Assembly: GCF_000377205.1 (NCBI RefSeq)
Contig: NZ_KB897909.1
Coordinates: 62,001-126,000, forward strand
Source of the DNA: Thioalkalivibrio sp. ALJ3
Lineage (GTDB): Bacteria > Pseudomonadota > Gammaproteobacteria > Ectothiorhodospirales > Ectothiorhodospiraceae
Direction: 5' to 3'
DNA: 64,000 nucleotides
Shown: piece after piece, positions 11,149-16,443 of the stretch
How the letters are laid out: the number at the start of each line of letters is the position of its first letter
Position numbering within the stretch: the first letter of the stretch is position 1
Program-made: the position numbers and the translations under genes
The notes under the pieces: model-generated
Database searches by the model: none
Seen by the model: the letters and a program-made list of their open reading frames with translations, nothing else
What the model was told of the DNA's origin: nothing

Positions 11149-11152
<4 letters not shown>
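10673..11152 (-). CDS. greA: Transcript cleavage factor GreA
   Basis: Enters the RNA polymerase secondary channel and rescues backtracked complexes by stimulating transcript cleavage (159 aa). The N-terminal coiled coil has the acidic tip in the sequence [13 protein letters not shown] (catalytic D and E), followed by the C-terminal FKBP-like domain ending EILEVRYVN. The start ATG overlaps the carB stop by 4 bases, giving the familiar carA-carB-greA operon. Confidence 0.97.
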
Positions 11153-14382
<3,230 letters not shown>

Positions 14383-14430
14383 GTGACGGCTCTCGCAGGC
14401 TGTCGAAATCGGAAATTCGGAGGGGGAGCT

Positions 14431-15564
14431 TTAGCGACGCGCGGCGCGCATCATCTCGACGAAGTCGTCGAACGCCGGGGACACATCGTGCGGGCCCGGG
14501 CTGGCCTCGGGATGTCCCTGCAGGCTGAAGGCCGGGCAGTCGGTGCGGGCGATCCCCTGCAGCGTGCCGTCGAACAGCGACCGGTAGGTCGGCGTCAGCG
14601 TATCGGGCAGGTTGTCCTCGTCGATCGCAAAGCCGTGATTCTGCGACGAGATCATCACCCGCCCGCTTTCCTCGTGGCGGATCGGGTGGTTCGCCCCGTG
14701 ATGGCCGAACTTCATCTTCACGCTCTTGCCGCCGCTGGCAATGCCCAGCAGTTGGTGCCCGAGGCAGATGCCGAACAGCGGCAGCTTGCGCTCGCAGAAC
14801 CCGCGGATCGCCTCGATGGCATAGGTGCAGGGCTCGGGGTCGCCCGGGCCGTTGGACAGGAATACCCCATCGGGCTTCAGCTCCATGACCTCGTCCACCG
14901 GCGTCTCGGCCGGCACCACGGTCACGCGGCATCCGCGCTCCGCCAGTTTGCGCAGGATGTTCCGCTTCATGCCGAAGTCGTAGGCCACCACATGGTATTC
15001 GGCCTTATCCGGATTGACCCGCGCCGGCGCCTCTCCCAGCTTCCAGGTCCCTTCGAGCCATTCGTAGCGAGTCCGCGTGGTGACCTCGCGCGCCAAGTCC
15101 ATCCCCTTGATGCCGGGGAACTCGCGCGCGGCTGCCAGGGCCGCGGTCTCGTCGACATCCCCGGCCTGGATGCAGCCGTTGAGTGCACCCTTCTCGCGCA
15201 GGATGCGCGTCAGCTTGCGGGTGTCGATCCCGCTGATTGCCACAATCCCATGGCGCAGCAGGTAGTCCGGCAGCGACTCGCGCGAACGAAAGTTCGATAC
15301 CAGCGGCGGCAGGTCGCGGATGATCAGCCCCGCAGCATGGGCGCGCGCGGACTCGTCGTCTTCCGGGTTGGTGCCGGTATTGCCGATATGCGGATAGGTC
15401 AGCGTGACCAGCTGCCGGTGATAGGAAGGATCCGTCAGGATCTCCTGATAGCCGGTCATCGCGGTGTTGAACACCACCTCGCCGACTGTCTGGCCCTGGG
15501 CGCCAATCGCCTGACCATGAAAAACAGTGCCATCTTCCAGGACAAGCAGAGCAGGCGCGGACAC
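14431..15564 (-). CDS. carA: Carbamoyl-phosphate synthase small (glutaminase) subunit
   Basis: Glutamine amidotransferase subunit (377 aa) that supplies ammonia to CarB. The N-terminal CPSase_sm domain starts [14 protein letters not shown]; the class I glutaminase triad is visible as the Cys in [12 protein letters not shown] and the C-terminal [12 protein letters not shown] (His and Glu). The start is GTG 15564 with GGAGG five bases upstream; the frame stays open further but without conserved sequence. Leads the carA-carB-greA operon; no clear promoter was recognised between it and the tRNA-Ser tail array. Confidence 0.96.
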
Positions 15565-15819
15565 GTGGACCTCCGGATGGTCTGGGTCGAGGCCGCCAGG
15601 CCATTTGCCGGCGGCGGTACTGCGATTCGTTCGGGATCTTCGACCCGGCCTTGCCCGCACCGTTTCGCTGGGGCTGGACCCCGCGTTCGGACAACGGTTC
15701 GGCGGCTAAAGGACGGGTGCGGTTTCGGCTGCAAGTGTACGCGAGCGCCGCGCGCGACGTCCAACGAGAATGGCCACTGGACCCTCGTGAAACGCCTTCG
15801 CCCAGGCCTCGTCGCGAGG
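15565..15819. other. Intergenic region upstream of carA
   Basis: This 255-bp stretch lies between the carA start and the end of the tRNA-Ser repeat array. I see no convincing gene in it; open frames across it have no recognisable domains. A carA promoter on the minus strand must lie here or in the array, but no good -35/-10 pair was found by eye. Confidence 0.4.
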
Positions 15820-15858: not shown

Positions 15859-15879
15859 AAGGGGCCAGTTGGGCCCCTT
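15859..15879 (-). terminator. Hairpin, outermost repeat copy
   Basis: AAGGGGCC (15859-15866) and GGCCCCTT (15872-15879) form a perfect 8-bp stem with a 5-nt loop. On the minus strand the 3' arm is followed by ATTTG. It is the last hairpin of the array and the best candidate for the 3' end of the tRNA-Ser precursor. Confidence 0.5.
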
Positions 15880-16043
15880 TGCTTGAATCTGACGGAGAGG
15901 GAGGGATTACTCGGCGCTACGCGCCTCGCCCTCCGGGTCGTCGCCTGCGGCGACGTTCGGGTGCCGCTACGCGTCACCCGTCGAACCCGTCTTTCTCATG
16001 TATCGAGGGTTCGAATCCCGATATGTCAGGGGCCAGACATGCG

Positions 16044-16066
16044 AAAGGGGCCACTTGGACCCCTTT
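16044..16066 (-). terminator. Hairpin, middle repeat copy
   Basis: AAAGGGG (16044-16050) pairs with CCCCTTT (16060-16066), with an A-run before and a T-run after the stem on either strand. The equivalent element recurs in each unit, so it may act as a terminator, a processing site or both. Confidence 0.45.
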
Positions 16067-16227
16067 GCTTGAATCTGGCGGAGAGGGAGGGATTACTCGG
16101 CACTGCGTGCCTCGCCCTCCGGGTCGTCCCCTGCGGCGACGTTCGGGTGCCGCTGCGCGTCACCCGTCGAACCATCATTTTCTATTTCTCGGGTTCGAAT
16201 CCCCGTACCTCCGGGGCTATACATGCG

Positions 16228-16250
16228 AAAGGGGCCACTCGGACCCCTTT
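16228..16250 (-). terminator. Hairpin directly after tRNA-Ser
   Basis: AAAGGGG (16228-16234) pairs with CCCCTTT (16244-16250), 10 nt downstream of the tRNA-Ser CCA end on the minus strand. It could terminate most transcripts, with read-through producing the repeat RNAs. Confidence 0.5.
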
Positions 16251-16259
16251 GCTCGAATC

Positions 16260-16350
16260 TGGCGGAGAGGGAGGGATTCGAACCCTCGATACGGGGTTAC
16301 CGTATACACACTTTCCAGGCGTGCGCCTTCGACCGCTCGGCCACCTCTCC
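16260..16350 (-). tRNA. tRNA-Ser (anticodon GGA)
   Basis: A 91-nt class II tRNA including encoded CCA. The acceptor GGAGAGG pairs with CCTCTCC, discriminator G; the anticodon stem CACGC/GTGTG encloses CTGGAAA, giving GGA (Ser, UCC/UCU). A long variable arm pairs TACGG/CCGTA, and the T-arm is GAGGGTTCGAATCCCTC. Immediately downstream lies the tandem array that repeats its last 19 nt. Confidence 0.97.
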
Positions 16351-16443
16351 GTTTTGTTCCGCGAAGGCGCTGGCCCACGCGAAGCGCGAAAGGGTAAACC
16401 AGCGGCGGGCGGTTAGCAATGCAGACACCCGCCACGGACAGTA

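Follow-up and report, generated by a model that had tools for sequence, protein, structure and literature searches.

The repeats that follow the tRNA-Ser(GGA) gene of Thioalkalivibrio sp. ALJ3 raise the question of why an array located next to a tRNA gene should combine a direct copy of the end of this tRNA with an inverted copy of its T-arm. We analyzed a stretch of 64,000 nt of contig NZ_KB897909.1 carrying this locus, hereafter called the window, and compared the array with related loci in gammaproteobacterial genomes.

A Variant RtT Array Downstream of tRNA-Ser(GGA)

A tandem array of RtT-type units lies 3′ of tRNA-Ser(GGA) on the minus strand. It comprises about 2.3 copies with a period of 186, that is, two full units and a trailing hairpin, in the order tRNA-Ser, terminator-like hairpin, unit 1, hairpin, unit 2, hairpin. 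Each full unit closes with a direct copy of the tRNA 3′ end (16076-16094 and 15890-15908). The features are as follows:

16260..16350, minus strand: tRNA-Ser, anticodon GGA (ARAGORN; Rfam tRNA, 57.8 bits)
16273..16292, minus strand: target stretch in the tRNA, comprising the end of the V-arm, the T-stem 5′ strand, the T-loop, and the start of the T-stem 3′ strand (about tRNA positions 44-63)
16228..16250, minus strand: terminator-like hairpin AAAGGGG..CCCCTTT in the spacer between tRNA and unit 1 (sequence; repeat families)
16076..16206, minus strand: RtT unit 1 (RF00391, 36.8 bits, below the gathering threshold of 45)
16191..16203, minus strand: anti-T-arm of unit 1, GGGATTCGAACCC followed by the CCGAG swap (complementary over 13 nt, without specificity for tRNA-Ser)
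16167..16174, minus strand: sense fragment TGGTTCGA of unit 1, pairing with the anti-T-arm center
16076..16094, minus strand: direct copy of the tRNA 3′ end, AATCCCTCCCTCTCCGCCA, at the end of unit 1 (sequence; repeat search)
15890..16033, minus strand: RtT unit 2 (RF00391, 46.9 bits, above the gathering threshold)
16000..16019, minus strand: anti-T-arm of unit 2, GGGATTCGAACCCTCGATAC (complementary to tRNA-Ser(GGA) over all 20 nt)
15981..15988, minus strand: sense fragment GGGTTCGA of unit 2, with which the conserved RtT core begins (fold; alignment)
15909..15980, minus strand: RtT core, hairpins between the T-loop halves of the unit (Rfam alignment; fold)
15890..15908, minus strand: tRNA 3′ end repeated a second time in direct orientation, with one change (sequence; repeat search)
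15859..15880, minus strand: trailing terminator-like hairpin after unit 2 (repeat search)

These repeats are a variant form of RtT (Rfam RF00391), which is known as a tRNA-linked repeat at E. coli tyrT. According to the covariance model (gathering threshold 45 bits), unit 2 is a member (46.9) and unit 1 scores below (36.8). Like RtT, the array consists of tandem units of about 180 nt that directly follow a tRNA gene and repeat the 3′ end of the tRNA, CCA included, at their own ends, and the core hairpins are the same. It differs from RtT in that its antisense segment crosses the entire T-loop and faces the V-loop and the T-stem 5′ strand, not the acceptor side, the linker is longer, and most of the Rfam basal stem appears to be missing. 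In unit 2, the alignment lacks four model positions in the 5′ strand of this stem, marked as non-pairs, while the remainder aligns; in predicted folds the tRNA-end copy is unpaired in unit 2 and paired in unit 1. On the basis of this alignment and these folds, we class the array as an RtT variant and not as a typical member. The tRNA-Ser and spacer also gave a sub-threshold match to sX4 (RF02223), a proteobacterial sRNA family (30.2 bits for a gathering threshold of 70), whose aligned part is largely tRNA; the locus is not a member.

The units share a common plan: (i) hairpin, (ii) inverted T-arm segment, (iii) linker, (iv) GGTTCGA, (v) core hairpins, and (vi) tRNA-end copy, the last spanning tRNA positions ~59-76 including the CCA. 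Together, parts (iv) to (vi) resemble a T-arm with the core set into its loop. The E. coli rtT follows the same plan, and its inverted segment, GAAGGATGAGAAGCTTCGA, is an imperfect antisense of the tRNA-Tyr T-arm. At three tRNA-Gln(TTG) loci (L001, L044, and L058), a second tRNA-Gln copy with its T-loop interrupted by an RtT core stands beside an intact tRNA-Gln; it is possibly a tRNA with a giant T-loop or a recombination product.

Ten RtT matches (E up to 1) were found in the source genome. Nine adjoin genes for tRNA-Ser(GGA, GCT, CGA), tRNA-Gln(CTG, TTG), or tRNA-Arg(ACG), and the stretch carrying the tenth and weakest contains no tRNA. Matches occur in 66 of 369 gammaproteobacterial genomes and in 26 of the 30 genomes of the genus. 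RtT-like arrays are also found at tRNA-Pro and tRNA-Arg(TCT) genes (L179 and L212), beyond the tRNAs of our first RtT scan.

A Complement of the T-Arm in Each Unit

The preliminary description of this DNA reported that 16000-16019, read on the plus strand, is identical to the sense strand of the tRNA-Ser(GGA) T-arm region. An inverted-repeat search confirmed this 20-nt match, which is 100% and involves the V-loop and T-arm (16292-16273, minus strand). The 13 nt said to be kept by the neighboring unit are equally exact (16191-16203 versus 16273-16285, 100%). These two are the only complementary sites with up to three mismatches in the 64 kb, for 0.01 expected. As previously described, each unit therefore combines the tRNA end in direct orientation with the T-arm in inverted orientation, and in relatives the inverted segment varies with the adjacent tRNA.

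When all 43 tRNAs of the genome are compared, tRNA-Ser(GGA) is the single best match of unit 2 only. The GGGATTCGAACCC segment of unit 1 (13 nt) fits tRNA-Pro and the other Ser tRNAs equally well, and tRNA-Glu better (16). Extending this comparison to the other arrays of the genome, the own tRNA is the best of the 43 targets for window unit 2, both Arg units, and the first Gln units, and is not the best for window unit 1, the Ser-GCT and Ser-CGA units, and the second Gln-CTG unit.

The Complement Follows the Adjacent tRNA

Across 82 arrays, the best ungapped antisense score was 12.4 for the own tRNA versus 8.3 for other tRNAs, and the median share of other tRNAs scoring as well as the own one was 0.04. 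At 120 tRNAs of RtT loci, scores of at least 13 were reached 53 times downstream and once in an equally long upstream stretch.

Anchored comparison splits the units into two classes. One class, 48 E. coli-like units with a short linker, has a left arm complementary to the T-stem 3′ strand and the acceptor (own 6.00 vs. other 3.70 of 8); this arm can pair with the tRNA-end copy of the unit itself, as in the Rfam structure, and a V-loop complement is absent from these 48 units in this comparison. Only seven units of this class can tell changes of the arm with the tRNA from changes with the copy in the unit, which is too few (four lean toward the tRNA, none toward the copy, and three are ties). 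In some short-linker arrays at tRNA-Ser(GCT) (L081, L042, L108, and L093), the antisense reaches the CCA or nearly so, as if the tRNA 3′ end were complemented in full. In the 25 long-linker units, which include those of the window, it is the right arm that complements the tRNA, both at the T-stem 5′ strand (3.24 vs. 2.01 of 4) and at the V-loop (3.12 vs. 1.99 of 5).

To look at the tRNA-specific bases independently, we searched the 369 gammaproteobacterial genomes with the pattern GATTCGAACN{16,46}GGTTCGA, that is, GATTCGAAC, a gap, and GGTTCGA, which leaves the tRNA-specific part free. The reversed pattern, used as a control, gave few matches. Outside the genus of the window, 27 distinct matches lie downstream of a tRNA, and in 19 of these loci all seven bases after GATTCGAAC match the adjacent tRNA. 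For tRNA positions 52 to 46, in this order, 27, 27, 24, 26, 25, 23, and 20 of the 27 match; the next three drop to 5, 5, and 9. Leftward, only position 62 is matched (21/27), the rest being near chance (6-12/27). Examples of these bases are CTCCGAC, CTGCGAC, and CTCTGAC at tRNA-Arg, CCCCGAC at tRNA-Pro, and CCTCGAT, CCTCGGT, CCACGGA, and CCCCGGA at tRNA-Ser. A narrower pattern applied to the whole collection returned 16 stretches, seven of them with the upstream tRNA found in the stretch; five of these match at 7/7 and two carry the CCGAG swap described below.

When the tRNAs were permuted, the observed total was never reached (0/20,000), and the same held with identical pairs collapsed, within isotype, and for V-loop positions 46-48 alone, figures that overstate independence as related loci share ancestry. 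The 40-unit permutation set consisted of the 27 units plus 13 chosen by linker class, two of which mismatch. Among 29 tRNA-arm pairs, the covariation count gave 66 double-change cells versus 28 ± 4 after shuffling and 2-17 in slid registers, and this covariation falls wholly outside the TTCGAA core.

By these sequence comparisons, we show that long-linker RtT units carry a 17-nt complement of their own tRNA, from about position 46 to 62, with sharp borders and compensatory changes. It covers the V-loop end, the T-stem 5′ strand, and the T-loop and tracks the T-stems and V-loops of Ser, Arg, and Pro tRNAs. As this stretch changes in step with the adjacent tRNA, the repeat RNA is suggested to base-pair with its own tRNA, a pairing that the comparisons support well.

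Constraint and Exceptions

In 16 units at orthologous tRNA-Ser(GGA) genes of the genus, the complement of positions 46-63 is near-invariant and both flanks vary. The anti-T-arm segment also persists where no tRNA 3′ copy was found (L157 and L159; L178, L206, and L209).

Exceptions to the tRNA-specific complement with compensatory changes are the Ser arrays with CCGAG in place of CCTCG, namely window unit 1, those at the Ser-CGA and Ser-GCT genes of the genus, and a few from other families (L188, L270, and L273). The swap costs two T-stem pairs and weakens the pairing. The interpretation given in the preliminary description, which proposed to check conservation of the complement, is supported in part: in relatives the segment tracks its own tRNA, but the CCGAG arms and the E. 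coli-like units, which have no V-loop complement, depart from it. The 2-nt change is recurrent in Ser arrays (16191-16203 in the window; L005, L029, L126, L128, L130, L188, L270, and L273) and sometimes restores a self-hairpin, TCGGGATTCGAACCCGA. In a pair of related genomes, L161 has no unit and L162 has one, seemingly joined at the tRNA 3′ end, pointing to unit loss or gain.

Predicted Folding

The preliminary description anticipated that a transcript running from the tRNA into the array would contain an antisense of its own T-arm. In the minimum free energy (MFE) fold of the 492-nt window precursor computed with ViennaRNA, the T-arm of the tRNA pairs with the anti-T-arm of unit 1; the perfect 20-bp duplex with unit 2, when forced, lies 3.0 kcal/mol above the MFE. 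For 52 units, the net duplex energy with the own tRNA after opening both partners averages −7.9 kcal/mol; these computed energies leave aside tRNA modification, tertiary contacts, and folding order. According to RNAalifold, the hairpin formed by UUCGAACC and GGUUCGA is invariant in the 14 long-linker units aligned. Beyond it, only one weak core stem was found in these 14 units, probably because hairpin lengths differ.

Alternative Origins of the Inverted Segment

The inverted T-arm might be only an internal strand of the RtT fold, pairing with the tRNA-end copy and GGTTCGA of its unit and tracking the tRNA through this copy. The preliminary description missed the RtT family, in which the E. 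coli-like complement does partly pair in this way. Such a basal stem belongs to the Rfam RtT structure, the 48 short-linker units match the 3′ side of acceptor and T-stem and not the V-loop, and the hairpin of the 14 long-linker units is invariant. However, in the long-linker class, including the window, the acceptor side is unmatched and V-loop positions 46-48 are matched, and four positions of the basal-stem 5′ side are deleted in window unit 2. Moreover, the sense strand of V-loop 46-48 has no counterpart at the unit positions where it would be expected: the 7-8 nt directly upstream of GGTTCGA do not copy the tRNA (2.93 vs. 2.68 of 8), so that the tRNA itself is the likely partner. A copy just before GGTTCGA is thus ruled out as partner of the V-loop complement, and an internal strand is refuted as the sole cause of V-loop matching unless another copy of 46-48 exists in the unit. 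We consider this explanation unlikely as a full account, although it is the most serious of the alternatives. A functionless mutational relic, arising by inverted duplication or template switching at the near-palindromic T-arm and kept alike by gene conversion, seems less probable still. Arrays do appear to recombine between tRNA ends, as at L161 and L162, and RtT cores interrupt full tRNA-Gln copies (L001), but the borders are fixed at tRNA positions 46 and 62 across many families, the segment is conserved in orthologues while its flanks diverge, and loci in which no 3′ copy was found retain it.

Two further explanations are highly improbable. The direct copy of the tRNA 3′ end resembles an attachment-site duplication and the T-arm is a common integrase target, so that the segment could be a DNA-level site, such as a decoy or half-site for a tRNA-targeting integrase recombining at the T-loop. 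Against this, the complement spans positions 46-62, whereas a T-arm core site would be symmetric (49-65), the far copy does not contain the TTCG half of the loop, and the units contain conserved RNA hairpins. Least credible of all is that the palindromic TTCGAA core gives any two T-arms an apparent complementarity by chance, the possibility by which the preliminary description would have withdrawn its match. The 13-nt match of unit 1, which fits several tRNAs of the genome equally, would agree with it, but other tRNAs sharing the core score far lower, covariation lies outside the core, and the upstream control yields 1/120 versus 53/120 downstream. The other-tRNA and upstream controls refute it for the array family as a whole, and the core alone is insufficient because the inverted segment changes with the neighboring tRNA among relatives.

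A Putative Antisense Acting on Its Own tRNA

Over these alternatives, we favor the reading that complementarity to the own tRNA is maintained in an anti-T-arm of the RtT RNA and that the target is probably a precursor or a misfolded form of this tRNA; judged from sequence, we hold it somewhat better than even. The function of this segment can be inferred along the following lines. The center of the segment, UUCGAACC, can pair with the invariant GGUUCGA of its unit and then leaves the tRNA-specific part, including bases of CUCGAUAC, in the hairpin loop, where it could serve as a toehold. The RtT RNA, within the read-through precursor or once released, might then pair with the V-loop and T-arm of its own tRNA when this is nascent, hypomodified, or misfolded. 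Opening of the T-arm would delay maturation or mark the molecule for decay and could limit the output of the own tRNA when transcription passes the terminator hairpin. Counting against pairing, a folded and modified tRNA hides its T-arm. The broader proposal, that RtT arrays are widespread bacterial anti-tRNA RNAs each co-evolving with the tRNA of its own transcript and regulating the folding, maturation, or decay of this tRNA through the 17-nt anti-T-arm, we advance tentatively, as a possibility with the odds somewhat against it. If true, a bacterial tRNA gene would have its own antisense regulator on one transcript. A tRNA-specific, co-varying anti-T-arm offers a concrete target for rtT that can be checked base by base and would help account for the pieces of the adjacent tRNA in the repeat.

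Comparison with Known Systems

The rtT of the E. coli tyrT operon was reportedly described by Bosl and Kersten in 1991; to our knowledge, it has been known since that year and its role is unsettled. Toehold or kissing antisense RNAs, such as the plasmid RNAI-RNAII pair, present their complementary segment in a hairpin loop. The complement of the window is likewise displayed in a predicted hairpin loop but differs in that its target is a tRNA and in that the antisense is made downstream on the same strand, thus from an inverted copy and not from an opposite-strand transcript. The 3′ETS-leuZ of E. coli is a tRNA-precursor spacer that acts as a sponge for small RNAs; like the RNA proposed here, it is a regulatory RNA from a tRNA transcript, but it binds small RNAs and not its own tRNA. 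Expression of RtT as small RNAs has been described, including in A. pleuropneumoniae, and a role in modulating the stringent response has been discussed; for E. coli, a stable RtT RNA is reported to be released in tRNA processing and to be linked to this response (PMC4986893). A tandem GA motif has been noted in RtT (PMC7657543), and rtT-like elements have been named as candidate attenuators (PMC2965389). No account of an RtT segment antisense to the T-arm came up in the searchable literature, outside which lies the 1991 article, which may mention one.

Genes around the Array

Downstream of the array, on the same strand, carA- and carB-like frames (translation read by eye) occupy positions 11149-15660, so that read-through from tRNA-Ser would enter carA. 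On the plus strand, a 172-aa ORF at 15879-16397 with GRDSNPR-like motifs is antisense to the tRNA and the array and is probably spurious.
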